Shown here in pieces: positions 22,704 through 61,388 of a stretch of 64,000 nucleotides of DNA. The notes beneath the pieces were generated by a model. The model worked only from the letters and a program-made list of their open reading frames with translations, made no database searches and had not been told where the DNA came from. Positions within the stretch are counted from its first letter, which is position 1; the number at the start of each line of letters is the position of its first letter. The DNA comes from a virus. The translations under genes and the position numbers were made by a program. The stretch covers positions 62,001 to 126,000 of the IMG/VR virus record IMGVR_UViG_3300042511_000879; one strand, 5' to 3'.

Positions 22704-23492
22704 CTATACCATAGAATCTCTTTTCGCTATAAGTTTTTGAAGTGATTTGTTAACACTTACTAACCATGTTTGTATTGAAGTAACATTAATTCGTTTCCAA
22801 CTATCGATTTGAGCTTGGATGCTTCTTTCTTGTTCTTGATAGTAGTATGCTTCGTCATTATTATAATTTTTAGCAGCATCTCTCTTTACAATTTCTTTCC
22901 AAGTCGGCCATACATAATCACTTTTTGCCTTAATCTCATCATCTGTTAATTTAGAGTTAACTTCAAGTTTTTCTTGTTCTGTTTTAATACGTTGCTTGTA
23001 ACTATTTATTTCTTTATTAATTTGTTCAAGCTTAGACATTTTCTTAATTTTGTCTGCATATTCTTTAGCAATTTCGGTAGCTCCAGTTTTTGGAATGCTG
23101 GTCTTAACAATATATCTATAGTGAAGTCTCTGAATGTTATGTCCTCCTGCATAAATCGCTTCAGTTTGGAAACTATAAGTGTTTTCTCCTCTTTGGATTT
23201 GAGCATCAATTTGAATATTTCCTTTAACGCTCTTACGCACGTTCATTGATAATAGTGAATCGGTTGGTAAGGTATACATTTCAATAGATTTAACCATATC
23301 GTATGTTAAATTGATTCTAGCATACTCTCTGTCGTATTTAGTGAACTCCTGTTTAAAGGTCTCAACAAACCATTTTTCTGTTGCAGCTAGCATTTCAACA
23401 ATTGTAGGTTCTAACGAATCTAAAATAACATTAACAATATTATCTTGATTTGACTCATTTAAGAATTGTCCGTATGTTTTAAATTTGTTCAT
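22704..23492 (-). CDS. Tagged protein 1: candidate internal head protein (N-terminal FLNE tag)
   Basis: A 262-residue protein whose first 13 residues (MNKFKTYGQFLNE) match the tag shared by five other genes in this window. In T4, a similar N-terminal peptide directs internal proteins into the prohead and is removed by the gp21 protease after Glu. The body is mostly helical with long Lys/Glu/Gln-rich segments (about 150-260) and no recognised enzyme motif. It has its own promoter (23520-23552) just after a terminator, so it is expressed independently of the S1-like gene upstream. Packaging and injection are inferred from the tag only. Confidence 0.6.
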   Translation of the reverse strand: MNKFKTYGQFLNESNQDNIVNVILDSLEPTIVEMLAATEKWFVETFKQEFTKYDREYARINLTYDMVKSIEMYTLPTDSLLSMNVRKSVKGNIQIDAQIQRGENTYSFQTEAIYAGGHNIQRLHYRYIVKTSIPKTGATEIAKEYADKIKKMSKLEQINKEINSYKQRIKTEQEKLEVNSKLTDDEIKAKSDYVWPTWKEIVKRDAAKNYNNDEAYYYQEQERSIQAQIDSWKRINVTSIQTWLVSVNKSLQKLIAKRDSMV

Positions 23493-23519
23493 GTTTTATA
23501 TATCTGTTTTAATTATAAT

Positions 23520-23552
23520 GTAAATATAAACAAAAAAACCCAGATCCGAAAA
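23520..23552 (-). promoter_or_regulatory. Promoter, TTTTC-N19-TATATTTAC
   Basis: On the minus strand a TTTTC box (548-552) is followed after exactly 19 bp by TATATTTAC (520-528), then ATTATAATTAAAACAG and the tagged gene start at 23492. The -33 box falls inside the loop of the terminator at 23537-23560, so termination and initiation signals are interlocked. The same box pair and spacing recur eight more times in the window and resemble the Bacteroidota promoter. Confidence 0.7.
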
Positions 23553-23560
23553 TCTGGGTT
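23537..23560 (-). terminator. Rho-independent terminator of the S1-like gene
   Basis: A 9 bp stem (AACCCAGAT / ATCTGGGTT) with a 6-base loop, followed in the minus direction by seven T. It lies 28 bp downstream of the S1-domain gene stop. An almost identical copy is at 39820-39843. Confidence 0.85.
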
Positions 23561-23588
23561 GTTAATTTTATGTTAAAGTTATTAACAA

Positions 23589-24803
23589 TTATAGTTTCAA
23601 GAAAACCTTTCTAGTAGCTACGTCCATTCTTGTTATTTGAACGGTAATATTATCGTTCTTTGTAAGTGAATCAACCTTAACATTATCAGGAAGTTCGGAT
23701 ACGTGAAGTAATCCAACAATTCCATCTCCAACATCTACGAACACTCCATAATCTTTAACAGATTTTATTGTCCCTTTAACTTCAACTGGAAAACTTTTAT
23801 ACTTAGTAGCAACATCAGTCCATGGGTCAACAATTTCAACATGCTCTAATTGAGTCAACGTTATTTTATCGTTATTGATTATCTCTTTAATCTTAAATTC
23901 AATAACATCGCCTGGATTAATTTCTCTAGCCTTATGTTTTCTTGCCATTTCTGTGTTTAAATCATTTGCATGAATCATTCCAGTTAAACAATTATCAAAT
24001 TCAACAAATACTCCGTATTTTGTAGAACCTGTTACGTTACCTTCTTTGGTTTCTCCAGGGGTATTTCTAAGGTCTTCAATAGCATTTGGAATAAGCGCTT
24101 GAAGATATTTTCTATGGGATACTATTACTGTTCCTTTTTCCGGAGAGAAACTCATCGGTACTACGTACATTTGTGTGTTAATTACAGAACCAAAGTCTGC
24201 AAGTTTATTAATACCAGCTAGGGATCCTGGCATAAAGCAATCAACTCCTTGAACATTAACAAAGTAACCTCCACCTGGAATCATACTTGTTACAGTTCCC
24301 ATATATGCAGTATTTCCAGTTTCAGCAGATGCTAAAATTTCTCTTAATGTAGCAGCTTTGATACCAGCTTCAACAGAACCTAATACAAATCCTCTAGTAC
24401 TTTTACTTTTTTCTGCTGTAATTTCAACAGATATTTCAGTTCCAGGAATTAATTTTGCTCTTGAGATTGTAGATTCTTTTGACAATTGAACATACACCAT
24501 TTCACGATATCCAATATCGATAGATGCCCATTCCATGTCTACTGCATAAACTTTACCAGTATGCGTTTCTCCAGCATGTATTACATGTGTTTGATTATTT
24601 TCACTCCAGTGACTTTCCATTAAATTAAGAAGTTCTTGAGCATATGGTTCTCTAGAATAAACCTTAACACCATCTGGCGCTTTTACATGCTGGTTTATTT
24701 TTCTAAGAGTAGATGGGCAATCTGCAGAATATGCTTCCCAATCGAAGTTAGAGATATCGTTTGATAAATTCTCTGTTTGTTTAGTTAAAACGTCTTGTGA
24801 CAT
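23589..24803 (-). CDS. S1-domain RNA-binding protein (ribosomal protein S1-like)
   Basis: A 404-residue protein with four S1-type OB folds at about residues 80-146, 176-240, 251-320 and 340-404. The third and fourth are canonical (T-K-Y-G-V-F-V-E-F and V-K-D-Y-G-V-F-V-D-V with G-L-L-H-V-S-E-L). Bacterial S1 has six such repeats and binds mRNA on the 30S subunit, so four repeats plus an 80-residue unique N-terminus suggest a shortened, S1-like regulator. Bacteroidota use few Shine-Dalgarno sites, so a phage S1 could help load A/U-rich phage leaders, or compete with host S1. That role is inference. It is bounded by its own terminator at 23537-23560. Confidence 0.8.
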   Translation of the reverse strand: MSQDVLTKQTENLSNDISNFDWEAYSADCPSTLRKINQHVKAPDGVKVYSREPYAQELLNLMESHWSENNQTHVIHAGETHTGKVYAVDMEWASIDIGYREMVYVQLSKESTISRAKLIPGTEISVEITAEKSKSTRGFVLGSVEAGIKAATLREILASAETGNTAYMGTVTSMIPGGGYFVNVQGVDCFMPGSLAGINKLADFGSVINTQMYVVPMSFSPEKGTVIVSHRKYLQALIPNAIEDLRNTPGETKEGNVTGSTKYGVFVEFDNCLTGMIHANDLNTEMARKHKAREINPGDVIEFKIKEIINNDKITLTQLEHVEIVDPWTDVATKYKSFPVEVKGTIKSVKDYGVFVDVGDGIVGLLHVSELPDNVKVDSLTKNDNITVQITRMDVATRKVFLKL

Positions 24804-24846
24804 TGTTTTTATTTTTAAAAGGTTAATAAATTATATATTTGTTTTT

Positions 24847-36548: not shown

Positions 36549-37031
36549 TTATTTTATATCTTCAGCGTCAGTAGCAACAGTAGCTTCTTTACTTTCATTA
36601 ATTTTCTTACTGAAAGCCTCGCTCATTTTATTTAAACATGCTTCGTATGCTTCAGATTCCATGTCTTTTTTCATTTCTTTTACACAATTAGATGCCATAC
36701 TAGCAACAAGTGATGCATTTTCAGCCATATATGTTTCTACAGTATGCTCATCATGCGCATCTTCTTCCCATGTTTTAGCTTCTGCAATAACTGCTTCATA
36801 ACACTCTTTTAATAATTCAGAAACAGGTTTTGTCTCTTCTTTAATTTCTTCAGCCTCATCTCCGATGTTTGCTTCGCCAGCTTCGTCTAGTCCTTGAACC
36901 TCTTCTGCTTCCTCTTCTGTTTCTTCTTCAGATTTAACATCAGGAGTTCCTTTAGCAACAACGTCTGCTTCTATTTCTTCGGCTCTGTCCATTTCTGAGA
37001 CAAATTCTTCGAATTTTTTAATACTTGCCAT
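36549..37031 (-). CDS. Tagged protein 2: acidic Glu-rich candidate internal head or scaffold protein
   Basis: A 160-residue protein opening with the 13-residue tag (MASIKKFEEFVSE). Residues about 17-70 are Glu/Asp-rich and low-complexity, followed by a helical region (about 70-160) with Cys, Met and Ala. Several further hydrophobic-x-Glu sites (V-I-A-E near residue 83, K-I-N-E near 147) could also be prohead-protease targets. T4's internal and scaffold proteins combine such acidic helical bodies with cleavable N-termini, so a scaffold or packaged role is suggested. The next gene upstream (37058-37459) carries the same tag, forming a pair. Confidence 0.6.
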   Translation of the reverse strand: MASIKKFEEFVSEMDRAEEIEADVVAKGTPDVKSEEETEEEAEEVQGLDEAGEANIGDEAEEIKEETKPVSELLKECYEAVIAEAKTWEEDAHDEHTVETYMAENASLVASMASNCVKEMKKDMESEAYEACLNKMSEAFSKKINESKEATVATDAEDIK

Positions 37032-37057: not shown

Positions 37058-37459
37058 TTAATTTTGTGTTGGAGAATTAGAACTATTTGATTTTAAAGTT
37101 TTTATTAATGTAGCAATTGCTGCATCTTGTCTTTTCCATGCTGTAGTTTTTTCAACTTCTTCTCCTACTCTTGGTCTATCCGGATTGTTAGGGTCAAGTC
37201 CAACTTTTTGAAATCTACCTTTAGAGGATACACCAATCATAGAACTAGTGTCATTATCTTCTCCTTCTCTCCAATAAATTTGTACCGCATAATCAAATGT
37301 AATTCCGTCTGACCCATTTTTTTCAATAGTAGTTTCGCTAGTAACTTCTGCCCATGGGCATTTTTTAGCAACAGTATCGATTACATACTTTCTAAATTCT
37401 TCAGAAGTTTGAACTTGTTTTTCGTTTACAAATTGTTCAAATAGTTTAATATGTTTCAT
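37058..37459 (-). CDS. Tagged protein 3: candidate internal head protein
   Basis: A 133-residue protein starting with MKHIKLFEQFVNE, the clearest copy of the shared tag. The remainder looks like a small folded alpha/beta domain (EEFRKYVIDTVAKKC, then ITFDYAVQIYWREGE and a Lys/Ser-rich tail). No catalytic motif is seen. It lies directly upstream of the acidic tagged gene, with 26 bp between them. The combination suggests a packaged effector or capsid protein. Body function unknown. Confidence 0.6.
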   Translation of the reverse strand: MKHIKLFEQFVNEKQVQTSEEFRKYVIDTVAKKCPWAEVTSETTIEKNGSDGITFDYAVQIYWREGEDNDTSSMIGVSSKGRFQKVGLDPNNPDRPRVGEEVEKTTAWKRQDAAIATLIKTLKSNSSNSPTQN

Positions 37460-39860: not shown

Positions 39861-40205
39861 TTATTTCCAGAATAGCTGGACACATATTATAATAAATGAA
39901 AGTATTAAACAAGTTATTGTCTTTGCATTTAGAGATTCATCCATCATAAAATATGTTAGGATAGAGAACGAAATCATACCCATTGCAAATCCAATAAATC
40001 TTCCTGGCCAAAGTTGACCATCGTAATATTCTGCAATCATTCTAGTTGCTTCTATAAAAACATATGATATTGTAGAACCTCCTATTACAGCAACTAGCAA
40101 TGGGTTTCTTTTAAACCACGGCCACATGAACTGACCATTTGTTTGGAACCATATAAACGATTGTCCAAATAGAAACAAAAGAATTCCATATATTAATGCT
40201 CTCAA
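39861..40205 (-). CDS. Small four-helix membrane protein
   Basis: A 114-residue protein with about four hydrophobic segments (roughly 4-20, 34-53, 66-86 and 94-112) separated by short polar loops (WFQTNGQFMWPWFKRN). The final helix is rich in Ile/Leu/Cys. It overlaps the RNase HII stop by 4 bp. Such small phage membrane proteins can be holins, superinfection-exclusion factors or host-membrane modifiers, but no specific motif decides. No muralytic enzyme is adjacent, which weakens a holin call. Confidence 0.5.
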   Translation of the reverse strand: MRALIYGILLFLFGQSFIWFQTNGQFMWPWFKRNPLLVAVIGGSTISYVFIEATRMIAEYYDGQLWPGRFIGFAMGMISFSILTYFMMDESLNAKTITCLILSFIIICVQLFWK

Positions 40206-40834
40206 AATAAGGTTCCTGTTTCGGTCAGTAGGTGAGAAATAAAACTCATTCGATGTTGCTTACTCGGACCTAATGATTTAATTGCATCAATATGTGCTTT
40301 AGTACCATATCCTTTGTTTGAATTCCAACCATATCCAGGAATCTCAATATCCAAATCTTTCATAACAGCATCTCTTTCAGTTTTAGCTAGAATACTTGCA
40401 GCCGCTATTGAAATATATTTATTGTCTCCTCCGATTATAGTTTCAAAAGGAATTCCTTCAAATCCATGGAACTGGTCTCCATCAACTAATATAAAGTCAA
40501 ATTGGGCATTTTTTTGAACTCCTTCTAAGCATCGTTGCATTCCAATTAAAGTTGCTTTTAAGATATTAGTTGATTCAATATCTTCCGGAGATATATGTAC
40601 AATGCAATATGCAATTGCATTTTCCTCAACAATTCTACGAGCCTCTTTTCGTTGTTGTTCATTTAATAATTTTGAATCTTTGATTAAGGGGTTTTCAAAG
40701 CCAAATGGCATTATGCATGCGGCAACCGTAACAGGTCCACTTAGTGAACCTCGGCCAGCCTCATCAATGCCAATTTCTATAATTGATTCATCTCCAGAAT
40801 AGGAGTGTTTAAGTAGTATTTGTCTGGTTTCCAT
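40202..40834 (-). CDS. rnhB: Ribonuclease HII
   Basis: A 210-residue enzyme that cleaves RNA in RNA-DNA hybrids, removing primers and single misincorporated ribonucleotides. The signature I-G-I-D24-E-A-G-R-G29 is near the N-terminus, followed by S-G-P-V-T-V-A-A, D-S-K-L-L, Y-C-I-V-H-I-S-P-E-D-I and later D-G-D and A-S-I-L-A-K-T-x-R-D. Length and catalytic acids match. It shares an operon with the small membrane protein. In a phage with its own replication enzymes this role is expected. Confidence 0.93.
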   Translation of the reverse strand: METRQILLKHSYSGDESIIEIGIDEAGRGSLSGPVTVAACIMPFGFENPLIKDSKLLNEQQRKEARRIVEENAIAYCIVHISPEDIESTNILKATLIGMQRCLEGVQKNAQFDFILVDGDQFHGFEGIPFETIIGGDNKYISIAAASILAKTERDAVMKDLDIEIPGYGWNSNKGYGTKAHIDAIKSLGPSKQHRMSFISHLLTETGTLF

Positions 40835-40879
40835 CTATATGTTTTATACTTATTATATAGATGGATTCCAGATAGTTTC

Positions 40880-41632
40880 TTATTTCTCAGGGTTTTCAAC
40901 TCTCCATTTGTCGTAACGATCTACCACGTCTTGAAGTATTTTAGCTCTTACAATATCTTTATTCTCAAAAACATGGACTCCAGTTCCTTTAATTCCGCTC
41001 ATCAACTTCATAAATCCTGGAAGACCAGCACTAACCTTTGGTATATCATATTGACTAATATCACCAGTAACTAGAACCTTAGAATTTTTACCCATACGGG
41101 TTGTGAATAACATTAATTGTTTAAATGATGCATTTTGAGCCTCATCTAGAATCATAAATGAATCATCAAAGGTATCTCCTCGCATAAAGGCAAGTGGTTT
41201 AAATTCAATAGCACCTGAAGCGATCAGCCCTTCGGTTAATTCATCACCTACTATTTTTTTAAAATTTGAAATATATGATTGCATGTACGGATCAACTTTG
41301 TCTGCAATATCTCCAGGTAGGAATCCAAGTTTTTCTCCTGATTCTTGAATTGGTTTACATAGGATAATTTTTGAAACTCCTTTTGTTGCTAGCAACCATA
41401 GGGAAGTATAGCATGCAGTAAATGTTTTTGAGGTACCTGCTGGACCTGAACAGAACGTTATTTCATTTTTTTTGATTTTTTCAAAATAATCATATTGAGA
41501 TGGTTTTAATTGTACTCCTACTAAATCTAATTCTTTTACTACTGTTTTTTTAGGACGTCCAATTGGAGCTTTTGTAGTCGTAGGTTTTGCCTTAGTTGTT
41601 TTTGATTTACTTTCCACTGTTCTTTTTTGCAT
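40880..41632 (-). CDS. phoH: PhoH-like ATPase
   Basis: A 250-residue P-loop ATPase. The Walker A motif G63-P-A-G-T-S-K-T70 follows C-S, then I-I-L-C-K-P, G-F-L-P-G-D, F-M-I-L-D-E-A-Q-N (Walker B) and V-L-V-T-G-D, the standard PhoH helicase-like set. The N-terminal extension is basic and contains an AT-hook-like P-I-G-R-P-K-K (23-29), so it may bind AT-rich DNA. PhoH is common in marine and Bacteroidota phages. Its function is unsettled, with RNA-related roles proposed. Confidence 0.88.
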   Translation of the reverse strand: MQKRTVESKSKTTKAKPTTTKAPIGRPKKTVVKELDLVGVQLKPSQYDYFEKIKKNEITFCSGPAGTSKTFTACYTSLWLLATKGVSKIILCKPIQESGEKLGFLPGDIADKVDPYMQSYISNFKKIVGDELTEGLIASGAIEFKPLAFMRGDTFDDSFMILDEAQNASFKQLMLFTTRMGKNSKVLVTGDISQYDIPKVSAGLPGFMKLMSGIKGTGVHVFENKDIVRAKILQDVVDRYDKWRVENPEK

Positions 41633-41649
41633 ACAATTTTTGTATATAT

Positions 41650-41907
41650 TTAATCACCAGTCATCATGACAAGTTCTTTTAATTTCTTGAGTGATTCACA
41701 TTTTTCATATTCCTCTAACTCAACAAAATATTCTATTAGGACATCTACGAATTTACTTCGCTGTCCAATTCCATGTGGAATATCTATCGTGTGACTTCCG
41801 TCGTTATAAACAATAAATCTATTAATGGTTTTTGTAAAATTTCTAGTAAGTATGTAATAGCTGGACCTCATCAGAGAATCTCTTTCCTCCCCTGTTATAT
41901 CTCCCAT
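41650..41907 (-). CDS. Small protein with C-terminal UVR-like motif (1 of 4)
   Basis: An 85-residue protein ending in V-E-L-E-E-Y-E-K-C-E-S-L-K-K-L-K-E-L. This matches the UVR (UvrB/UvrC) helical hairpin pattern, D/E-x-E-K-A-x-x-L-R-x-x-I. Three other small genes share the ending (41997-42260, 43342-43635, 48790-49092). UVR motifs occur in UvrB/C, in McsA and in the middle domain of ClpC, which also has one here (residues 283-297). It could bind the phage ClpC or host UvrB/C. The N-terminal half is unrecognised. Confidence 0.5.
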   Translation of the reverse strand: MGDITGEERDSLMRSSYYILTRNFTKTINRFIVYNDGSHTIDIPHGIGQRSKFVDVLIEYFVELEEYEKCESLKKLKELVMMTGD

Positions 41908-41996
41908 CTTTCAGTGGTGTTTTTAAAAGTGGCTATAGCCACATATAGTATATATTTTAACCAGTAGAATTAAAGATATCCGGGCTAAAAAGGTTA

Positions 41997-42260
41997 CTAT
42001 ATTATATTGCTTGATAACATTTCAATTATCTTTTTAAGTTCTTTACATTTTTCATAATCTTCATTATCTTTAAAAAACTTAAGAACCGTTTGCACTCCTT
42101 CTATTTTCTCTTCAATAGTTCCATCGTGCTTTAAGGCACCCATTTTACCATTAACAATAGAAGAGTACATTGCCTCCATCATATCTTCTTTAGAGGCTTC
42201 GTGTAGTCTTTTTATAAATTTTCTTGATTCCTCCGGGCTTTCTTCTTCAATACTGCTCAT
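41997..42260 (-). CDS. Small protein with C-terminal UVR-like motif (2 of 4)
   Basis: An 87-residue protein with an acidic helical N-terminus (MSSIEEESPEESRKF) and the C-terminal F-F-K-D-N-E-D-Y-E-K-C-K-E-L-K-K-I-I-E-M-L, the closest of the four to a textbook UVR motif. Its 5' end overlaps the DnaJ-like gene stop by 14 bp, linking it to chaperone expression. Adaptor or partner-binding role is inferred from the motif. Confidence 0.5.
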   Translation of the reverse strand: MSSIEEESPEESRKFIKRLHEASKEDMMEAMYSSIVNGKMGALKHDGTIEEKIEGVQTVLKFFKDNEDYEKCKELKKIIEMLSSNII

Positions 42261-43080
42261 TTGGATTTTTTATCTTTTTAAGTAATTCTATTTCAGTTTC
42301 AGTTAAAGTTATAGGAAGAGTTCTAAGTTTCACCATAAGATTTCCGAATCCTTCTGCGTTATATATTGGCATTCCTTGTCCAACAACTCGTAGAAGTTGT
42401 GAATCATGAGAACCTTGAGGAACTTTGATTTTAATAGAATTTAGTTTGGTGTGGATTTCAAATTCTCCTCCGAGTAGAAGGTCAATCCAGTTTAGGGTTA
42501 ATTCAACATAGATATCACTGCCATTAACAATAAGTTCAGGGTCTGGTAAAACATTGACAGTTAATATGATATCGCCAGGAGGCGCAGATGAATTTACAGG
42601 GTGATTTGCTCCTTTACCTGGGACTTTAAGTTTTGTTCCAGTTTGGATTCCTCGAGGTATATTGATATTAAATCCACCAGTACCGACATCAATATATTTT
42701 CTGACACCTTCATATGATTCCTCAACTGTTATATTTAATGTAACTCTAACATCATATCCTCTTGCTTGACCGCCAAAGGATTGATTAAACATGTCGGTAA
42801 AATCACCTCCAAAACCATGGAAAGCGTGTTGCCATGCAGATGTGGTGTCCTGGTTTCTTTGGAAATTTCCAAATGGATTATGTCCTCTAGATGGATTATC
42901 ATACTGTTCTTTTTTGACAGGGTCAGAAAGAGTTTCGTATGCTTCAGATATTTTTTTGAATTGCGAGTCGTCTCCTCCTGTTTTGTCAGGATGGTGTTCT
43001 TTTACAAGCTTTCTATAAGATTTTTTAATCTCTTCTGGAGTAGCACCCTTTGAAACGTTAAGAGTTTCGTAATAATTCAT
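42247..43080 (-). CDS. dnaJ: DnaJ/CbpA-type co-chaperone
   Basis: A 277-residue J protein. Residues 1-65 are a J domain with the essential H30-P31-D32 and the surrounding Y-R-K-L-V-K-E-H pattern. A Gly/Phe/Gln linker (about 66-105) leads to two C-terminal beta-barrel substrate-binding domains (about 108-265; G-F-N-I-N-I-P-R-G-I-Q-T-G and L-L-L-G-G-E-F-E-I). It lacks the Cys-rich zinc finger, so it is a class B (CbpA-like) J protein. It would stimulate the host DnaK, as no phage DnaK is seen in the window. It sits between two UVR-motif genes and near ClpP/ClpC. Confidence 0.9.
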   Translation of the reverse strand: MNYYETLNVSKGATPEEIKKSYRKLVKEHHPDKTGGDDSQFKKISEAYETLSDPVKKEQYDNPSRGHNPFGNFQRNQDTTSAWQHAFHGFGGDFTDMFNQSFGGQARGYDVRVTLNITVEESYEGVRKYIDVGTGGFNINIPRGIQTGTKLKVPGKGANHPVNSSAPPGDIILTVNVLPDPELIVNGSDIYVELTLNWIDLLLGGEFEIHTKLNSIKIKVPQGSHDSQLLRVVGQGMPIYNAEGFGNLMVKLRTLPITLTETEIELLKKIKNPNEQY

Positions 43081-43086
43081 TAGAGT

Positions 43087-43296
43087 CTATTTTTTGGAAT
43101 TTCTAACTCTAACTGTTTGTTTCATTACTGGAATTGGTGCAGATTTAACTTGTTTAATGCTATCTGCTTTTTTCTCGGCAACTAGAGCTGCTTGACCTTT
43201 TTTATAAGTTGCAATTTCTCTTAGTTGTTTGTTTTCCATACAGATTGCAATTCTTTCTAGACTATCTGCAATCTTTTTTAAATATTCTTCGTTCAT
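43087..43296 (-). CDS. Small basic helical protein, unrecognised
   Basis: A 69-residue, Lys/Ala-rich protein beginning MNEEYLKKIADSLERIAICM, almost wholly helical, with a basic C-terminus (QTVRVRNSKK). It lies 6 bp upstream of the DnaJ-like gene. Its helix-rich, basic tail could bind nucleic acid or a partner protein. No family recognised. Confidence 0.4.
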   Translation of the reverse strand: MNEEYLKKIADSLERIAICMENKQLREIATYKKGQAALVAEKKADSIKQVKSAPIPVMKQTVRVRNSKK

Positions 43297-43334
43297 ATCG
43301 ATATACTTTATTAGTACATTATATATTAAAGAAA

Positions 43335-43354
43335 AAAGGTCCTATAGGACCTTT
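43335..43354 (-). terminator. Terminator overlapping a stop codon
   Basis: An 8 bp perfect stem (AAAGGTCC / GGACCTTT) with a TATA loop, followed by TTTTTTC on the minus strand. The TAG stop of the UVR-motif gene (43342-43344) overlaps the base of the loop, so the hairpin forms over the end of the reading frame. Confidence 0.75.
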
Positions 43355-43635
43355 GCTTTCTTAAGTATCTTATTTATTTGGGCGCATTTTTCGTACTCTT
43401 CAAGCTCTTCAAAAAGCTCTAACATATCTCCTAGAATTTTAACAATAGGTTTAATATCAAGTTCTTGTTTTTCCATTAATTTAAAATCAACTCCTTTAGA
43501 AATTATTTCAGCATAATTTTCATTTGCAAGCTTGATTTTTAAATCATACATTACGTTATTCATTTCGGCTTCTTTTTTAATAGTGTCGATTTCGTCTTCT
43601 TGTTCTTCAAATAAATTGTTAAAGTCTTCGTCCAT
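43342..43635 (-). CDS. Small protein with C-terminal UVR-like motif (3 of 4)
   Basis: A 97-residue acidic protein (MDEDFNNLFEEQEDEIDTIK at the start) ending F-E-E-L-E-E-Y-E-K-C-A-Q-I-N-K-I-L-K-K. It has its own promoter at 43659-43690 and terminator at 43335, so it is a single-gene unit. The tail has the same E-E-Y-E-K-C signature as its three relatives. A partner-binding helical hairpin is the likely role, the target unknown. Confidence 0.55.
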   Translation of the reverse strand: MDEDFNNLFEEQEDEIDTIKKEAEMNNVMYDLKIKLANENYAEIISKGVDFKLMEKQELDIKPIVKILGDMLELFEELEEYEKCAQINKILKKAKVL

Positions 43636-43658
43636 AATTATAAGGTTTTAATTTGATA

Positions 43659-43690
43659 TGTAAATATAATACAAATTCCTGACACAGAAA
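43659..43690 (-). promoter_or_regulatory. Promoter, TTTTC-N18-TATATTTAC
   Basis: TTTTC (686-690) and TATATTTAC (659-667) on the minus strand. The spacer is 18 bp, one shorter than the other copies. The transcribed leader continues ATATCAAATTAAAACC before the ATG at 43635. Confidence 0.65.
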
Positions 43691-43718
43691 AACTTTTTAT
43701 CAAAAAGTTATTAACAAT

Positions 43719-44450
43719 TTAAAATGGTACCTCATCTACCATATCCATTCCTGATATTTTAAGCATCACATTCATAGTGGCTTTAACATCTCCTTCACAA
43801 TATGTTTTTATTCTTTCAATACTACCATTCCAATACTCTTCAGTTGTACTACTTGCTTCCATTATAGTTTTAGGAGATGGAATATTAAGAGTGTTACAAA
43901 TTAAATCTAGTGATGCACTATTCCAACCTGCAAATTTCCAAATTTCATAAGTATCTACTAGACAGTTTTCCCAAGGTTTTTTCTTTTGTAAATGAAATTG
44001 ATGAGGTATTGCTACTCCGTTTACAATGGATCTTTTTATTAGATATGGAAAATCAAAGTTTTTAATATTATGTCCAGTAAATTGAACTGAAGGACTTTGA
44101 TTAAAAACAGCTTGAGCTGTACCCATAAACTCTTTAAGAATTTCTATTTCGCTACCTTTATAGAAAGAACGAATTTTTGAGGTTGTAATACCATCTTGGA
44201 ATTTAATTTGTCCCATAGAAATTACAATAACTTTGCTAAATTCTGGACTAAGCGCCGACATATGAGTATACATTTCCGCATCAGTAAGTTTTGCCAAATG
44301 AGATTCAGTATTTCTATGCTGTTCTGCTTTTTTTGCCCAATGCTTTATTCCGCCTGGTCTTTTAATACAGAATTCTTCGTAATTCGGATATTCTGAAGAT
44401 GTTTCAATGTCAATAAATAACATTGACTTTAGTTCGGTAGTATTATACAT
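43719..44450 (-). CDS. 3'-5' exonuclease, PolB-proofreading-like DEDD family
   Basis: A 243-residue protein with the DEDDy exonuclease motifs in order: Exo I F-I-D14-I-E16-T-S, Exo II G-H-N-I-K-N-F-D133-F-P-Y-L, and Exo III Y217-C-E-G-D221-V. It resembles stand-alone PolB-type exonucleases (family DNA_pol_B_exo2) rather than a full polymerase. It would degrade or proofread DNA or RNA 3' ends. It lies downstream of the 82-residue gene with 8 bp overlap. Confidence 0.8.
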   Translation of the reverse strand: MYNTTELKSMLFIDIETSSEYPNYEEFCIKRPGGIKHWAKKAEQHRNTESHLAKLTDAEMYTHMSALSPEFSKVIVISMGQIKFQDGITTSKIRSFYKGSEIEILKEFMGTAQAVFNQSPSVQFTGHNIKNFDFPYLIKRSIVNGVAIPHQFHLQKKKPWENCLVDTYEIWKFAGWNSASLDLICNTLNIPSPKTIMEASSTTEEYWNGSIERIKTYCEGDVKATMNVMLKISGMDMVDEVPF

Positions 44451-44691
44451 TCTTTGAGTCGTTTAAATCTTTAAAAATCTTATAAATTGATATTGGGTAT
44501 ACACATTTTTTTACACTTCTATCTGACTTTTCATTCATCCAATAATATGGGACTCCATGTAATTTAGTCAGTGAATCAATTAAAGAAACTAATTGACCAT
44601 ACATAAGAATCCCTGCAAATTTAAAATAGTAATTCTCACCAATCTTTGGTTTAACTACGTAAATTTTAGGTTCTTTTTTATCTTTTGCCAT
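44443..44691 (-). CDS. Small protein, unrecognised
   Basis: An 82-residue, basic protein (MAKDKKEPKIYVVKPKIGEN) with a beta-rich middle (YYFKFAGILMYGQLVSLI) and a Lys-containing C-terminus. It overlaps the exonuclease start by 8 bp. No domain recognised. Confidence 0.45.
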   Translation of the reverse strand: MAKDKKEPKIYVVKPKIGENYYFKFAGILMYGQLVSLIDSLTKLHGVPYYWMNEKSDRSVKKCVYPISIYKIFKDLNDSKNV

Positions 44692-44722
44692 ATACTAATT
44701 ATACACAAAAAAATAAAAAAGT

Positions 44723-44941
44723 TTAAAGATGTGTAGTGTCAACGTGGTCATGTGACTGTCGAAGTATCATATATCGATCATATGATATACTCATTTCGAT
44801 CCATCCTCCAGTAATAGATTTGGGTACTTCGTGATGGTCAATTATATAGTTTGGTGGGGTAGTAACTCTTTCTAATAAAAAGTCCATCATCAAATCTGAT
44901 TCTCTATTATGAACCCATATTTTTACAAATGTATTATTCAT
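44723..44941 (-). CDS. Small protein, unrecognised
   Basis: A 72-residue protein with a His-rich C-terminus (RQSHDHVDTTHL) and a beta/alpha middle. It overlaps the glycosyltransferase gene by 8 bp at its start. The His cluster might bind a metal. Function unknown. Confidence 0.4.
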   Translation of the reverse strand: MNNTFVKIWVHNRESDLMMDFLLERVTTPPNYIIDHHEVPKSITGGWIEMSISYDRYMILRQSHDHVDTTHL

Positions 44942-46834: not shown

Positions 46835-47536
46835 CTAGATACCATGCTTGATTCGGTTAAAAAGCATGCTCTTCATAATTGGTAACATACAATCAGCGTA
46901 AGGAGGTGGTGTTGTTTTAAATTTTGCATCAAATCTAAAAAATCTATAAGAAGTACTTTCTAATTCTGTTCTTTTAATAAACTCAGAAATCTCTTTGATT
47001 GAATTTTCTAACTCTTCAACTTTCTTTAAATTAAACTCGCTCCAATTTATTTTAAAAGATGAAGGTTCTATATAAGAATAGACGTGAATTTTTTGATTTA
47101 CAATATCGATATAAAAAATGTACCCTTTGGTATTGAGATGCTTTTTCTCTGGAATCTCAGTAATTGTGCACTGTGATTCTACAATTCTCCATTTATCTCT
47201 AATAGTTCGATATAAATCTTCTAGTTTTTCTATTGCAACATCGCAAATATCATACATTGAATTGATACCATTAGTTTCTTCTGGATAATCATACTTTAAA
47301 GACATAGTATCAACATCAATTCCAGTAATTATTCTGGTTTTGCTTTCAATTTCGTCTCTTCCGTATTTAATATTATATAGTCTTTCGAGTTCTGTCTCTA
47401 CTTCTAAAATAGCAGAATACAAGTTATTAGCAGAAATCATTTTTTTAATTTTATCGATTCCGGCTAGTAGCTTGTAATATTTTAACTCATAGTCATGAGG
47501 TGGCTCTATTAGCCAATTTGTTTCAAAGACGTTCAT
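46835..47536 (-). CDS. Helical protein, unrecognised
   Basis: A 233-residue protein, mixed alpha/beta with a helix-rich N-terminal two-thirds (LELYNIKYGRDEIESKTRI region) and C-terminal aromatic/Pro segment (FRFDAKFKTTPPPYADCM). No signal peptide or catalytic motif is recognised. It sits between the glycosyltransferase and a set of small genes. Function unknown. Confidence 0.4.
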   Translation of the reverse strand: MNVFETNWLIEPPHDYELKYYKLLAGIDKIKKMISANNLYSAILEVETELERLYNIKYGRDEIESKTRIITGIDVDTMSLKYDYPEETNGINSMYDICDVAIEKLEDLYRTIRDKWRIVESQCTITEIPEKKHLNTKGYIFYIDIVNQKIHVYSYIEPSSFKINWSEFNLKKVEELENSIKEISEFIKRTELESTSYRFFRFDAKFKTTPPPYADCMLPIMKSMLFNRIKHGI

Positions 47537-47597
47537 ACCTATATCTATCTTAAGTATAATAAATTATATAGGTATTTTTGTTTTATATTACTATAAT

Positions 47598-47909
47598 CTA
47601 GGACTTAGTTCTTTTAGTAATGGTGCTTTGAACTCTGTTTGGAGTTTTTCTAGGATTAACGGTAGTTAGTCCCCATTGTAGAATAAACCAACTTGCCTCT
47701 TTTTCAGCGGCTGCTTTTGAAATTTTAAGCACTTCTCGTATTCTTTCAACAGAATATTTAATAAATGTCTCTTCTTTCTCTGGAGTAGTTTTATAATCCA
47801 TGTACCATGACGGGTTTGTTTTAACATCTTCGTATGTTACTCCATGGTCCTTAAGCTGATGGTTAATCAATTCAACAAAAAGCTCTCTTTGTTTTTCTCG
47901 GTTTGTCAT
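47598..47909 (-). CDS. Small basic protein, unrecognised
   Basis: A 103-residue protein with helical N-terminus (REKQRELFVELINHQLKDHG) and a basic, Thr/Arg-rich C-terminus (RKTPNRVQSTITKRTKS). It overlaps the next gene by 4 bp. It may be nucleic-acid-binding from the tail, but no motif is recognised. Confidence 0.4.
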   Translation of the reverse strand: MTNREKQRELFVELINHQLKDHGVTYEDVKTNPSWYMDYKTTPEKEETFIKYSVERIREVLKISKAAAEKEASWFILQWGLTTVNPRKTPNRVQSTITKRTKS

Positions 47910-48103
47910 AATGAAATTAATGAAATAAATGTATTTTTATCGTTTAGTCTTACAAAATCAGAATATGATATATCCACTAGGAATGAATCTTTAAAGTATG
48001 TCGGAGATATTGTAATTGGATACGTTTCTGCATCTAATTTTCCTTTAATTATTTTATCCAAATATTCAAGCTCGCCAGAATGTACGTAAAAATAGATTTT
48101 CAT
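47906..48103 (-). CDS. Small protein, unrecognised
   Basis: A 65-residue protein (MKIYFYVHSGELEYLDKIIK) with a beta-alpha-beta plan. It immediately follows ClpP, its ATG directly abutting the ClpP stop codon, so it is translated from the same message. It may be a ClpP partner, by location only. Confidence 0.4.
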   Translation of the reverse strand: MKIYFYVHSGELEYLDKIIKGKLDAETYPITISPTYFKDSFLVDISYSDFVRLNDKNTFISLISL

Positions 48104-48790
48104 TTATTTTCTAGATTTTGATTTAACTGGATTAATAATCTCGTCGATTATACCGTACTTAAGTGCCTCTTCTGCGCTTAACCATAAATCTCGGGTAGCA
48201 TCAGACATAACCTGCTCTGGTTTCTTGTCACAATATGAACCTAACAAATTAAATAGTTCTTTGTTGACTTTTTGCCATTCTGCCCAGTCTATTTCGGCAT
48301 CTTGGATATTCCCACTGAATCCTCCTGAGGATTGGTGTAACATAGTAGTCGAGTGTCTTAGTGAACTTCTCTTGCCTTTAGTTCCAGCTCCTAATAGTAC
48401 TGAACCCATCGAAGCTGCCATTCCTGTATTTACTGTTTTGATATCAGATTTAATCCATTCCATAACGTCAATCATAGAAAGCCCTGATTTTACAGAACCT
48501 CCTGGACTATCAATATGCATTGTTATATCTCGGTCATCTGTGCTATCTAAAAACATTAATTGAGCTTGTACAATAGTTGACATATTGTCATTAACAGGCC
48601 CTGCAACCCACAATAATCGATCGATCATCAACCTTGAAAATATATCCATTTGAGTAGCTCTTAATTGTCTCTCTTCTAGAATATAAGGTGTCATTGATGA
48701 TTCAATTTGATTTTTATAGTAGTGCATGTTCATTGAACTTATGCCCTTGTCTAGCATTGCGTATCTTTCGAATTCTTTTCCGTGATTCAT
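48104..48790 (-). CDS. clpP: ATP-dependent Clp protease proteolytic subunit ClpP
   Basis: A 228-residue serine peptidase. The catalytic triad is visible: Ser127 in G-M-A-A-S-M-G-S, His152 in T-M-L-H-Q-S-S-G-G, and Asp201 in A-T-R-D-L-W-L-S-A. The conserved H-I-D-S-P-G-G-S-V segment is present at 92-100. Length and order fit full ClpP, and the N-terminal about 50 residues are somewhat longer than in host ClpP, with no obvious propeptide site. Its start codon overlaps the stop of the UVR-motif gene upstream. It could assemble with the phage ClpC-like ATPase (50907-52880) or host partners. Confidence 0.92.
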   Translation of the reverse strand: MNHGKEFERYAMLDKGISSMNMHYYKNQIESSMTPYILEERQLRATQMDIFSRLMIDRLLWVAGPVNDNMSTIVQAQLMFLDSTDDRDITMHIDSPGGSVKSGLSMIDVMEWIKSDIKTVNTGMAASMGSVLLGAGTKGKRSSLRHSTTMLHQSSGGFSGNIQDAEIDWAEWQKVNKELFNLLGSYCDKKPEQVMSDATRDLWLSAEEALKYGIIDEIINPVKSKSRK

Positions 48791-49092
48791 TATAGTTTCT
48801 TTAATAGTTTTTTAATTTGAGTACATCTTTCGTATTTTTCATGGAATGTATAGAAGTCCAGGCTTTTTAATATTGATTGCTTATAAGAACTTTTAGGAAG
48901 ATCTGCATACTGTATATCTCCATTTTCATGGACAAAATAACATAATAATGTTTCTCTATCTTCTTTGTTAATATTTGCTTCGATAAAATCTACAATTCTG
49001 TCGTGAAATTCGCAATCGTTTGTAATTGAATTAAACCCATCTCCATCTATGTAGAATTCAGGGATATCTGTTCCTTTCATGCACTCAATCAT
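48790..49092 (-). CDS. Small protein with C-terminal UVR-like motif (4 of 4)
   Basis: A 100-residue acidic protein whose end reads F-H-E-K-Y-E-R-C-T-Q-I-K-K-L-L-K-K-L. The gene sits between the dCMP-hydroxymethylase-like gene (4 bp overlap) and ClpP (1 bp overlap), so its translation is tied to ClpP. An N-terminal C-M-K-G-T-D and E-F-Y-I-D-G-D-G-F-N segment is unrecognised. The location makes it the best candidate for a ClpC/ClpP adaptor among the four. Confidence 0.55.
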   Translation of the reverse strand: MIECMKGTDIPEFYIDGDGFNSITNDCEFHDRIVDFIEANINKEDRETLLCYFVHENGDIQYADLPKSSYKQSILKSLDFYTFHEKYERCTQIKKLLKKL

Positions 49093-49943
49093 ATCTCTTT
49101 TATATTAAGATACCCTGATAATAAATTATAATATGTTTCTTTGGTCAACACATTATCTATCGTGGTATTTATATTATTTATCATCGAAATTCCTGAAGGG
49201 GTTAAACTCATAACTCCATTTTCAATATTAAAAATAGGTTCTAATAATTCCATTAAGTATTGTTTCTCGTGAAGAGGCTCGTGAACGATCCTTTCGGCTA
49301 ATTCAAAATGTCTTTCGTAAAAGTGGATGTTATCAGCGTAATGATGGTATACTCCAAGTTCTAATTCTGGGTAAGTTGACTTTAACCAAAGGTAAACATG
49401 TTGTTGGACGAATGCAAAGAATGGAGCATCAAATGTAAGTCCATAAAAAATATCATTAGATCGCATTTGAACTTTCATATCTAGCTTATTGTGTCTGATT
49501 GAAAAGTTTAGGTACATAGTACATACAAAATCTTTATTACCTTCAAACTGGTATTTTGGCTGATTTAAGAAAGCAATTGCTTGTCTAGTGTTCTTGTCTG
49601 CTTTAAGAGAATCGACTACCCATTGTAATTGTTCTCCGAAAAGAAGAGAACCGTAATTTGAATTAATTTCGTTTGTTCCAGGATTTGTTATGTTTTTCCA
49701 GAATCCAGAAAATTTATTAATGTAGTCAATATTGGTATCTTTATTAAGGTACCATGCTAATTCGCCGGCAAAATACTTCCAATTAAACTCTCTACTATTA
49801 AAATTAGCAAATGGTTCTTTTGGATTAATTGGATATCCGGCATAAAGTAATTCGGTAACTTCAAGGTCTCTTGGTTTAGAGACCTCTCCGTGTATTTTTA
49901 TATCTGAAATTATGTGTTTAAATTGGTGTGAGAATGTTTTCAT
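49089..49943 (-). CDS. dCMP hydroxymethylase-like (thymidylate synthase fold, T4 gp42 type)
   Basis: A 284-residue protein of the thymidylate synthase superfamily. The catalytic Cys141 is followed by an R-S-N-D (161-164) that matches the R-S-x-D phosphate site. The position equivalent to Asn177 of E. coli ThyA (Cys+31), which selects dUMP, is Asp172 here. Asp at this site marks dCMP-specific enzymes such as T4 gp42. E-I-N-S-N-Y-G and D-F-V-C-T also agree with gp42 better than with ThyA (P-C-H). It likely converts dCMP to 5-hydroxymethyl-dCMP using methylene-THF. A dUMP or plain methylase activity cannot be fully excluded. Confidence 0.75.
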   Translation of the reverse strand: MKTFSHQFKHIISDIKIHGEVSKPRDLEVTELLYAGYPINPKEPFANFNSREFNWKYFAGELAWYLNKDTNIDYINKFSGFWKNITNPGTNEINSNYGSLLFGEQLQWVVDSLKADKNTRQAIAFLNQPKYQFEGNKDFVCTMYLNFSIRHNKLDMKVQMRSNDIFYGLTFDAPFFAFVQQHVYLWLKSTYPELELGVYHHYADNIHFYERHFELAERIVHEPLHEKQYLMELLEPIFNIENGVMSLTPSGISMINNINTTIDNVLTKETYYNLLSGYLNIKEI

Positions 49944-49956
49944 GTTTATAATTTTA

Positions 49957-50880
49957 TTATATTACGTCAAAAAAGAACATGTGAAAGAATCTTGCGTTCT
50001 CAATAGCATCGCCAAAATATTTACTTGGCGCATGAATTTGTTTAGAATCGAATAGAACTAAACGGTTGTATACATTACCAACCTCATCGATTTTATCAAA
50101 ATTAGTTGAATCATAAAAATTTGCTTGAGCATTCTTGCCTTTAAATGTATCTTCAAACACAGAATAGTCTTCAAAATTATCAAATCTTTTTTTACCAGTA
50201 TTTTTACCAGAATAGAAAGATGTACCTGTTTCGAATGGAGCATCTTTAGTTAAGAATACCATTCCTGCATACATCTGACTGTCAACATGAAATACGGGTA
50301 GATCGCTTGCTACACAATATTGGAATACTCCATTTGCATAACTTTCATAATTCCAGTTTATAATTTCGCGGCCAATTATCTTTTCTAATTTCTCTTTAGT
50401 GCCATCTAGAATAAACCTAGTTTGACTTCTTTTACCTTTGTGATAATCAGAGGGGTTGTATTCTAGATTATTCATTGCAAAATCTCTAATAAAGTCAGGA
50501 TCTGCATAAAAATTATCAACTACAATTAGACTTTTATTTTCATTATAGAATCCAGAATAATAAGCAATAAAATTATCAATGCTTCCTGGATTATAAATAA
50601 GTTCTCCAAATTTAACTTGAATCTTTGCGCCTTTAGAGATATTAAAAACTAATCCAACACTATCATCTTCTAAAGGATAATATTTAGAAACATCTGGACG
50701 ACTAATAACTGTTAATGGTATTTCAATATCATCGACTATCAATGAACTAACTGGTTTAAAGGAATCACCGTCTTTTACTAGAATCCAACCAGTTGCATTA
50801 TAGTTATTATCGGATACTTTGGTAATTGAATCAAAAAACCAAAAAACGTTTGGATCTTTTGTAAAAGTGTTATAAATCAT
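49957..50880 (-). CDS. 2-oxoglutarate/Fe(II) oxygenase-like protein
   Basis: A 307-residue protein. The N-terminal half is beta-rich. V-V-D-N-F-Y-A-D-P-D-F-I-R-D-F (about 120-134) is a common lead-in of this fold. The iron triad is plausible: H198-x-D200, and H283 within Q-I-H-A-P-S. Arg297 may bind the 2OG carboxylate. It lies 13 bp upstream of the dCMP-hydroxymethylase-like gene and could act on nucleotides or proteins. Substrate is inferred only. Confidence 0.6.
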   Translation of the reverse strand: MIYNTFTKDPNVFWFFDSITKVSDNNYNATGWILVKDGDSFKPVSSLIVDDIEIPLTVISRPDVSKYYPLEDDSVGLVFNISKGAKIQVKFGELIYNPGSIDNFIAYYSGFYNENKSLIVVDNFYADPDFIRDFAMNNLEYNPSDYHKGKRSQTRFILDGTKEKLEKIIGREIINWNYESYANGVFQYCVASDLPVFHVDSQMYAGMVFLTKDAPFETGTSFYSGKNTGKKRFDNFEDYSVFEDTFKGKNAQANFYDSTNFDKIDEVGNVYNRLVLFDSKQIHAPSKYFGDAIENARFFHMFFFDVI

Positions 50881-58294: not shown

Positions 58295-58327
58295 GTTTCC
58301 GGTTTCCACAATATTGATTATATTTAC
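58295..58327 (+). promoter_or_regulatory. Promoter, GTTTC-N19-TATATTTAC
   Basis: GTTTC (58295-58299), 19 bp, TATATTTAC (58319-58327). Transcribed leader ATATCTAATTAAAACACCACATT, ATG at 58351. It drives the RadA/KaiC-type ATPase. Confidence 0.8.
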
Positions 58328-58350
58328 ATATCTAATTAAAACACCACATT

Positions 58351-59460: not shown

Positions 59461-59468
59461 CAAATATA

Positions 59469-59557: not shown

Positions 59558-59752
59558 AAAATACCCGCTGGGGCAAGGGACGATTACCAATGGCCGGGCA
59601 AGGCAGAATTGTTTCACCCGCTGCGGCACTAGGAACTGGTAGAAATCTGGTGCTGGGCATGGTTTCGGTTGGTTTTTGTGGTGCCCAGGAGTGTGGAGAG
59701 GGTCCGGAGTGTCTCGGAGGGTGACCCAACTCGACGAGAGGTTTAAGGCCCA

Positions 59753-59812
59753 ATGAGGAACATTGAGGAACATGAAGGGGCCCTTAGAGGAACATTGAGG
59801 TGACATTGCGAG
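59753..59812 (+). repeat. ATTGAGG short repeats
   Basis: GGAACATTGAGG occurs twice (59757-59768 and 59789-59800), with a GGAACATGAAGG variant at 59767 and a TGACATTGCG at 59801. The core matches the ATTG elements of the 54.4 kb array. Confidence 0.55.
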
Positions 59813-60123
59813 CTTGGAGTGCCTGCTATATATCATTTTAATAAAAAAGGTAGAACTGGGGTACCTGGTTGGCTGGAGATTGAAAGGGGTTAGGGAGGGT
59901 TGGTAGGACCATAAGGGGCTTAGAATCTGGACAGGTATGGGGGTCAGGAGGGGTAGAAGGGTTCTTTATAGGGGGTTTATATCCTTATACTGTTATTCTT
60001 ATATCTGTATATCTATATAGAGGTTTAGATGTCTTAGATGTTTTTGTTTTAGGTTTATTAGATTTATTTCTTTTTTATTGTGGGGGAGGGGTGGATTCCG
60101 GACGTGCCGGACCTAAATAAAAA

Positions 60124-60144
60124 AGAGGACCTTTAGGGTCCTCT
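60124..60144 (-). terminator. Rho-independent terminator of the tagged-protein operon
   Basis: AGAGGACC (124-131) pairs with GGTCCTCT (137-144) with a 5-base loop, followed by T on the minus strand, 6 bp after the stop region of the 60151-60396 gene. Confidence 0.85.
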
Positions 60145-60150
60145 GTGTGG

Positions 60151-60396
60151 TTATTTTTGTATGTCTATAATATCGTATTTGTGGAAACCCTTTTCTATGT
60201 TCCGGATGGCAGCATCGATATCAGTATACTTGCCTTTCCACTGGGTTTCAAAATTACCTTTTACTGTAATTCCTTTAAATCCGTCTGGCGATGCACCTTG
60301 GATTGTTGTAGTGTCAAATGGTTTATCATAGATAATTTCAATTTGGTATTTACTGGATTCATTTAAGAACGCTTCAAAGGGTTTGATATGTTTCAT
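60151..60396 (-). CDS. Tagged protein 4: small candidate internal protein
   Basis: An 81-residue protein beginning MKHIKPFEAFLNE, the shared tag, then S. The rest is a small alpha/beta domain (IEIIYDKPFDTTTIQGASPD and a helix at the end). It overlaps the next upstream gene by 4 bp and is the last of an operon of three tagged genes. If Glu13 is cut, the mature body is about 68 residues. Function unknown. Confidence 0.55.
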   Translation of the reverse strand: MKHIKPFEAFLNESSKYQIEIIYDKPFDTTTIQGASPDGFKGITVKGNFETQWKGKYTDIDAAIRNIEKGFHKYDIIDIQK

Positions 60397-60800
60397 AATT
60401 TTAAGTAGTTTACTTTGAGTTTGGTTTCTCCTAGGGCCCAGGCCTTAGTGAGTCTGTGGTGGCCGTCGTAGATTACAGGTCCTTCTGGGTATTCGATAAC
60501 ATTTATTGTTTTGACTTTACCCTCTCTAAGTATCATCTCTGTAACCTTACTAGATTGTATATTCCTTTGAGTGATATGTATATCCTTTGGGTTAATGGTT
60601 TTAGGTTTGGCCTTGTCCTCGTTCTCCTCCCATGTTTGGACTATTTCGCTCCAGGGACGGTTACTGATTTGGAAGATACCATCTATTCGTTTTGCATCAT
60701 CGAATATAGAACCCTTTGGAAGTCCTTCTACCTTTTCGATAGCGGCTTCCTGTTTTTTGGATTCATTTAGGAATTGTTCGAATAGTTTTACAAGTTTCAT
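60393..60800 (-). CDS. Tagged protein 5: ParB-like nuclease-domain protein
   Basis: A 135-residue protein. After the tag (MKLVKLFEQFLNE) there is a ParB/sulfiredoxin-type core: I-T-Q-R-N-I-Q-S-S-K-V near residue 76, then V-I-Y-D112-G-H-H-R116-L-T-K-A, the signature loop of the ParB-like nuclease domain that in other proteins binds DNA, CTP or phosphate. No helix-turn-helix DNA-binding domain follows. It sits between two other tagged genes. Packaging with DNA and action on entry is a possible reading. Confidence 0.6.
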   Translation of the reverse strand: MKLVKLFEQFLNESKKQEAAIEKVEGLPKGSIFDDAKRIDGIFQISNRPWSEIVQTWEENEDKAKPKTINPKDIHITQRNIQSSKVTEMILREGKVKTINVIEYPEGPVIYDGHHRLTKAWALGETKLKVNYLKL

Positions 60801-60803
60801 AGA

Positions 60804-61388
60804 TTAATAGTATGATGGTTCTCCTCTTGTTGCGAATAATGCGGTGATGTATGGTTTACCATCATTAGTGATAATTGCATATCCTCTATCATGTAACCAA
60901 GTTCTAAATTCATTGGCAGTTGAGTTAAAATAGGATTTTGAACTATTCCCAATCTTAAGATCGATAATCGGTTCTCCATCTTCTAGTTTTCCTGCCTTTC
61001 CGCCTTTAAGTGGAATATGGATTAAGGGTCTATTAGGTGTTGTATTACTCTTTTCTGGAGTTAATTTAACGTCCCAATCAAATGATTTTTGTAGGTCCTT
61101 CATTAGGGCACTGAATACTTTTTGTTTTTCAATGTCTTTAATATCAACTACATCATATCCTGCAGCACGGATTCCGTCTTCAAATTCAGCTCTCATTTCT
61201 GGAGTAAAATCAAGTACCTCTAGGTCTTGGTTCCATGCCCATCTAGAGATGAATTTATCAACATCTTGATTTATTGTTACGTATGGCAATCTATCTGTTT
61301 TATCAGTGGTTGCCTTCTTAATCATTCCTTTGATACTATAACTTTTAGCCTCGTTTACGAATTGTTCGAATAGTTTTATTTTTTTCAT
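60804..61388 (-). CDS. Tagged protein 6: candidate internal protein, unrecognised body
   Basis: A 194-residue protein with the tag MKKIKLFEQFVNE, then AKSY. The body has a helical segment (IEKQKVFSALMKDLQKSF, about 85-102), a Gly/Lys turn (LKGGKAGKLEDGEPIID) and a C-terminal beta region with aromatic end (GEPSYY). No catalytic motif is recognised. It is the first of the three tagged genes and is preceded by the 55-residue frame. Confidence 0.55.
   Translation of the reverse strand: MKKIKLFEQFVNEAKSYSIKGMIKKATTDKTDRLPYVTINQDVDKFISRWAWNQDLEVLDFTPEMRAEFEDGIRAAGYDVVDIKDIEKQKVFSALMKDLQKSFDWDVKLTPEKSNTTPNRPLIHIPLKGGKAGKLEDGEPIIDLKIGNSSKSYFNSTANEFRTWLHDRGYAIITNDGKPYITALFATRGEPSYY

Follow-up and report, generated by a model that had tools for sequence, protein, structure and literature searches.

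A candidate capsid targeting propeptide shared by unrelated proteins of a phage with a T4-like head gene order

The 64,000-nucleotide stretch analyzed here (the window) covers positions 62001-126000 of the 236,071-base virus record IMGVR_UViG_3300042511_000879 (labeled G000), and six of its genes encode proteins that share a 13-residue N-terminus, or tag, ending in Glu. Our analysis indicates that this N-terminus very probably acts as a T4-type capsid targeting propeptide; the tagged proteins would be packaged, cut after Glu13 by the prohead protease, and delivered with the DNA. This proposal is directly supported by the tag itself, its conservation at the protein level, a prohead protease within a T4-like gene order, a match to the T4 capsid targeting sequence (CTS), key residues included, and the conservation of predicted cleavage junctions.

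A shared N-terminus across the genome

All six open reading frames (ORFs) were verified on the minus strand of the window, and their starts, including Glu at residue 13 in 6/6, are exactly those given in the original prediction. In the following list and throughout, a slash marks the predicted cleavage site.

22704-23492, minus: tagged protein of 262 residues, MNKFKTYGQFLNE/S; tag codons 23454-23492; located among tail/baseplate genes
36549-37031, minus: tagged acidic protein of 160 residues, MASIKKFEEFVSE/M; tag codons 36993-37031; net charge -30
37058-37459, minus: tagged protein of 133 residues with the exact consensus, MKHIKLFEQFVNE/K; tag codons 37421-37459
60151-60396, minus: tagged protein of 81 residues, MKHIKPFEAFLNE/S; tag codons 60358-60396
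60393-60800, minus: tagged ParB-like protein of 135 residues, MKLVKLFEQFLNE/S; tag codons 60762-60800; phrog_1033, E 2.8e-4
60804-61388, minus: tagged protein of 194 residues, MKKIKLFEQFVNE/A; tag codons 61350-61388

The tag is not confined to these six genes. Across the complete G000 record, 28 ORFs have a tag score above 10, every one on the minus strand, with clusters at approximately 7.5, 24-25, 35-47, 85, 98-99, 122-123, 141-151, 205-207, and 218 kb and the consensus M-K-[HKR]-[IV]-K-L-[FY]-E-[QE]-[FY]-[LVI]-N-E. The six window genes scored 21.5-41 with a position-specific scoring matrix, and the two weakest tags, MNKFKTYGQFLNE and MASIKKFEEFVSE, had leave-one-out scores of 11.6 and 12.2. 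The top score among 3,209 ORF starts in shuffled sequence was -2.0. Of the proteome's 64,215 internal windows of 13 residues, just 5 scored above 10: one reflects a wrongly called start, and most of the rest are additional tags. A chance origin of the tag was thus ruled out. A match scoring 8.7 inside the protease ORF (genome 5510) proved to be an internal Met and was rejected as a tag.

As originally supposed, the bodies that follow the tag are unrelated, a single weak 40-residue match being found among the 33 bodies compared. The silent sites of paralogous tags gave a value of 0.35, compared with 0.39 expected for independent codons. Such nearly randomized sites rule out recent copying of one DNA module and indicate selection on the peptide, not on the DNA. 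Positions 7, 10, 11, and 13 are F/Y, F/Y, L/V/I, and E, respectively, in 24/24 tags in exact register. Because Glu13 had been a selection criterion for those 24 tags, we re-tested it on ORFs from seven genomes for which only positions 2-10 had served as the criterion; Glu stood at residue 13 in 56 of the 69 ORFs, against a background of 8.1%, and several of the exceptions had an x-x-E end a few residues further on.

Likeness to the T4 capsid targeting sequence and the predicted cleavage site

A tag profile built solely from G000 tags was run over complete phage records. From the whole T4 genome it retrieved only two N-termini, those of ipIII and ipII (E 0.001), bearing out the proposed likeness to T4 internal head proteins. 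In the profile alignment, T4 residue n corresponds to tag position n+3. Mutation of T4 IPIII has shown that residues 4 and 7 weigh most for targeting and residues 8 and 10 for processing, and T4 gp21 cleaves at L/I-x-E (PMC9026906). These four residues align with tag positions 7, 10, 11, and 13, the most constant ones. T4 gp23 is itself cleaved at AFGSFLTE/A, which has the same F-x-x-F-[LV]-x-E pattern as the tag.

The head gene cluster of G000 follows the T4 order: a portal of the T4 type (PF07230, 4.6e-70), an acidic ORF of 116 residues, an S77 prohead protease, and a gp23 major capsid protein (PF07068, 5.5e-41). The protease (genome 5510-7432; PF03420, 1.4e-11; phrog_207, 1.5e-40) is fused to a scaffold-like region, and by direct reading its motifs GELDHP and ISSR correspond to GELNHP and VSSR of T4 gp21. 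The gp21-type protease on which the original prediction depended is therefore present. The scaffold-like half of the same ORF has [VLI]-A-E at residues 265, 279, 293, and 307, a 14-residue period that may represent processing sites or a coiled-coil repeat.

The acidic ORF between portal and protease is itself tagged.

Genome 7503-7853, minus: acidic ORF of 116 residues at the gp67/gp68 place, between portal and protease; starts MKIIKTFEEFTSSLQE/DAIDAGED

The ORFs at this place in related phages start MKHVKLFEEFLSE/E, MKTIKTFEQFISE/A, or MKIIKTFEDFLTE/DALRAGED, and the gene is thus tagged across the group. The G000 ORF had no PHROG or significant Pfam match and no sequence homology to gp67 or gp68; a core role is suggested only by its position and tag, and we regard it as position-analogous to gp67/gp68 and do not class it as a family member.

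The predicted cut after Glu is supported by comparisons between genomes, since homologous bodies begin directly after Glu despite differing leaders. An internal ESVVLE/SEDTYNDYP of G000 corresponds to the tagged start MKRIKLFEEFLNE/SEETYNDYP of the related record G004, and ESVVNE/RNITIKR in a large G000 ORF corresponds to the start METEMSFNEFINE/RNITIKR of G007. Similarly, TRQLYE/STINNFKPEVL of G000 corresponds to MKHIKLFEQFINE/STINNFKPEVL of G003, and the counterpart of an embedded G000 MKTKFIYESFAEFVENKLNEGTLNE/AFKS begins an ORF of its own in G003, G005, and G006. Val is also common at the hydrophobic position of the predicted [L/I]-x-E cut site. Two large ORFs of the tagged set have repeated sites of this kind, and two further ORFs have, at their C-termini, NE followed by a tag-like segment.

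Genome 40119-42860, minus: ORF of 913 residues with 4 ES-x-[VLIMTF]-x-E sites
Genome 47431-50520, minus: ORF of 1029 residues with 8 ES-x-[VLIMTF]-x-E sites
Genome 42885-44756: tag-like C-terminus ESVTNEIMTFEQFINKDI after a predicted cut site
Genome 217695-218204: tag-like C-terminus YLNEMQRIKMFEEFKNID after a predicted cut site

The tagged set contains 18 ES-x-[VLIMTF]-x-E sites, compared with 0.6 (maximum 4) in shuffles, and such sites are 40-fold rarer outside the set (0.06 per 1000 residues); a further match, ESYVAE in genome 14246, was treated as background. We read the two large ORFs, from their sequences, as putative packaged polyproteins. The tag-like C-termini may serve for C-terminal targeting; in T4, Alt is known to be processed at its C-terminus (PMC9026906). 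A DUF3008 protein (genome 37762-38538) has a tag embedded at residue 170, FKSFEQFINE/SVQKIVD, and seems to have arisen by fusion of one protein with a tag and one without. A DUF2828/DUF7788 protein (genome 35984-37408) lies inside a cluster of tagged genes.

Cargo proteins and related phages

The clearest candidate effector among the tagged proteins is encoded outside the window.

Genome 204974-205516, minus: tagged Acb1-like protein (PF23474)

Its PF23474 score of 31.3 bits exceeds the curated cut-off of 27, and two HxT motifs (H61/T63 and H136/T138) are invariant in 14 homologues with 31-100% identity. In an AlphaFold2 model made from the 14-sequence alignment (predicted local distance difference test score 86), the well-folded part of the protein starts at residue 20, tag and linker (residues 1-18) show little order, and the tag is separable from the domain. 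The five best PDB fold matches of the model are all Acb1 (E 1.7e-5 to 6e-5, TM 0.41-0.57); it also matches the general 2H fold. By sequence and model, the protein thus resembles Acb1 of T4 (57B) and FBB1 and is likely an inhibitor of bacterial immunity by the cyclic oligonucleotide-based antiphage signaling system (CBASS), as a candidate phosphodiesterase. Acb1 of T4 and of the Maribacter phage Molly is untagged, whereas the version of the phage group studied here is tagged, as is that of a 635-kb phage (MKLKKYKQFIKE/S). One locus search for Acb1 used tag-derived patterns, and its tagged matches are biased accordingly; an unbiased search of public phages found both tagged and untagged versions. 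In the open-access literature (most subscription journals lay outside the coverage), we found no earlier account of the tag or of a packaged Acb1.

Other tagged bodies in G000 include ATP-grasp (206018), Lcl_C (24478), and the ParB-like protein of window 60393, and those in related phages include a NUDIX protein and an AAA_33/zeta-like (P-loop) kinase-like protein. Weak Pfam matches (E 0.01-0.1), which most bodies have, were disregarded.

The original prediction cast all six window proteins as candidate packaged effectors. The tag stood up in each case, and an effector role is not required of all six. The protein at 36549-37031 has tagged orthologues in G003, G004, G006, and G008 and, from its strong acidity and conservation, is likely of the prohead-core type. 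The protein at 22704-23492, a conserved gene among tail genes, need not be an effector; its 23 homologues (67-100% identity) all have a tag-like start ending [LIV]NE/S, with an amino acid identity of 0.86 in the tag and 0.76 in the body. A putative amidoligase gene (PF12224; window 21359-22651) lies directly downstream of it. A search with 37058-37459 also retrieved other contigs, in which the 13-14 residues of the tag precede unrelated bodies, the family search with 60151-60396 gave no match, and homologues of 60804-61388 were found in near-identical phages only. phrog_2859 holds both the ParB-like domain of 60393-60800 and a domain of another ORF (L012:10503-11021), residues 12-44 of which (about KKKGLWDNIWAKRKRGEKPAKPGDKDYP) match several PHROGs of unknown function. 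One further window gene may retain the end of a tag.

62754-63305, minus: HAD-like protein, MLNE/KYTTDKILIFDIDDT; possible vestige of a tag end

A shared FDLDDT motif and a weak Pfam match in common are its only links to proteins of G005 and G007 that bear complete tags (MKQLKTYTTFVNE and MKHLKNYTEYLNE).

In six related records (G003-G008), which may be incomplete, ORFs with a tag score above 10 numbered 16 in G003, 15 in G004, 8 in G005, 3 in G006, 4 in G007, and 7 in G008, and the tagged bodies partly differ from those of G000. Other lineages have tags of their own. LR756500 (462 kb) carries a different tag, MKYIKEYEEFINEA, on approximately 14 ORFs, several of which encode leucine-rich-repeat proteins. 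Sphingomonas phage PAU (JQ362498) resembles G000 in that one N-terminal tag is common to approximately 18 genes, many around head genes, and two of these are annotated as internal capsid proteins (gp142 and gp154); the PAU tag, MKTLTQLYEAKLNEA (e.g., L170:924-8608), differs in sequence, its link to packaging comes from annotation, and we found no PAU proteomics. The PAU tag is an independent parallel of the G000 tag. The nearest named relatives of the capsid protein belong to PAU, the Lak phages of Prevotella, and Tenacibaculum phages, which suggests a Bacteroidota host for G000. A near-identical clamp-loader-like ORF occurs at both ends of the G000 record (genome 1096-2046 and 235070-236020), through either terminal redundancy or assembly overlap.

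The T4 internal proteins (IPs) form a diverse defense set with a conserved CTS, in which IPI* blocks GmrSD and IPIII is required on ECOR17 (PMC3012670, PMC9391042). The tagged proteins of G000 resemble IPI, IPII, and IPIII in that a short N-terminal propeptide, putative in G000, with aromatic targeting residues and an [L/I]-x-E end, where cleavage is predicted in G000, is common to unrelated proteins, alongside a gp21-type protease, a gp23/gp20 head, and defense-related cargo (the Acb1-like candidate in G000). However, G000 has 28 such genes, compared with 3 in T4, and its tag is 3 residues longer; the phage is very distant from T4, and its cargo bodies have no recognizable homology to IPs. 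G000 further differs from T4 in its putative polyproteins, which have several predicted internal cut sites, in tags that are embedded or at the C-terminus, and in Acb1-like cargo. In SPN3US and phiKZ, a gp21-related protease cuts head proteins after Glu, as predicted for G000, and ejection proteins are packaged (PMC5694885). Their propeptides, however, are mostly long and not common to several proteins, and their cut motif is A-x-E (or S-x-E) instead of [LVI]-x-E. The head and protease of phage P1 are of another type than those of G000. The P1 Dar proteins are pre-packaged anti-defense proteins, with an N-terminal packaging signal in DarB (PMC9024508). They are not known to share a consensus tag. 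Multi-domain injected "polyvalent proteins," which include ParB domains (PMC5512222), are a further parallel.

Alternative explanations, proposed mechanism, and significance

The tag could be a motif for association with the prohead core or scaffold only, in which case the tagged proteins would help to build or shape the head, most of them would then be degraded or expelled, and no effectors would be injected. The tags on the ORF at the gp67/gp68 place and on the acidic 36549 protein are consistent with such a motif, as are T4 IPIII mutants that affect head assembly (PMC9026906). We nevertheless consider this explanation unlikely, given that several bodies have enzyme folds with no expected structural role (Acb1-like, ATP-grasp, and ParB-like, and NUDIX and P-loop kinase-like in relatives), that the bodies differ among close relatives, and that the T4 precedent is one of injection (PMC3012670). 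Short amphipathic N-terminal segments can serve many sorting systems, and the tag might be a capsid-independent signal such as a membrane anchor, compartment import signal, or degron; an export signal was rejected, as the tag has no signal-peptide-like hydrophobic core. Sorting of this kind is very improbable for a tag whose profile matches only ipII and ipIII in T4, which occurs on the ORF adjoining portal and protease, and which has Glu exactly at the body junction. The clustering and overlap of the tagged genes would fit a DNA or mRNA element that only happens to be translated, such as a translation enhancer, promoter, or recombination hot spot. That explanation is hardly credible, however, since the silent sites are nearly randomized, residue classes and not codons are kept, and tags also occur inside ORFs and at ORF ends.

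Several observations weigh against a T4-type propeptide. Residue 13 is not Glu in 4 of the 28 tagged genes (genome 7503, 39076, 44778, and 141523), and most tagged bodies have no assignable function. The tag profile missed ipI in its search of the whole T4 genome, and neither tag profile had a match in PTm1, pT24, Lak-A1, or MaF61, which suggests that tags drift fast; the match that speaks for homology to the T4 CTS is a short one, with an E of about 0.001. The ES-V-x-N-E sites of the polyproteins could partly have descended from duplication of one linker.

The capsid targeting propeptide remains our preferred explanation, with the S77 protease, the ipII/ipIII match, the tagged ORF at the gp67/gp68 place, and bodies that start after Glu all supporting the targeting and cleavage signal first suggested. 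From these features, we infer virion packaging, cleavage, injection, and, for most bodies, effector activity. Late in infection, F/Y7 and F/Y10, the aromatic residues of the tag, would draw the tagged proteins into the assembling prohead core, where the gp21-type S77 protease would cleave after Glu13 ([LVI]-x-E/) to free the mature proteins; these would remain in the head with the DNA and be delivered to the next host. Repeated ES-V-x-N-E sites in the packaged polyproteins (40119-42860 and 47431-50520) would be further targets of this protease. The cargo would be mixed, comprising core-type proteins and probable early-acting enzymes, of which the Acb1-like anti-CBASS phosphodiesterase is the clearest.

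The principle is already known from T4. What is new is its 28-gene scale, polyproteins and fusions that expose cut sites by comparison, lineage-specific tags, and a tagged anti-CBASS candidate. The arguments are evenly balanced on a broader proposal, namely that huge phages of the gp23/S77 group carry a modular, pre-loaded arsenal in which lineage tags (MKHIKLFEQFVNE, MKYIKEYEEFINE, MKTLTQLYEAKLNE, and MKLKKYKQFIKE) are placed on exchangeable cargo and on protease-cut polyproteins. Fast-drifting tags would then act as N-terminal, embedded, or C-terminal modules, the head protease would split polyproteins into several effectors, and countermeasures such as the anti-CBASS Acb1 would arrive together with the DNA.

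A list of head-carried proteins normally comes from virion proteomics; the tag would show from sequence alone which proteins of uncultivated huge phages are likely to be carried in the head and injected. Approximately 28 mostly unknown genes per genome, together with the polyprotein pieces, become ranked candidates for counter-defense in the first minute of infection. Because different tags recur in related lineages, it can be tested directly whether tag, core, and protease co-evolve. Our findings also suggest that an anti-CBASS enzyme can arrive ready-made rather than being expressed after entry.

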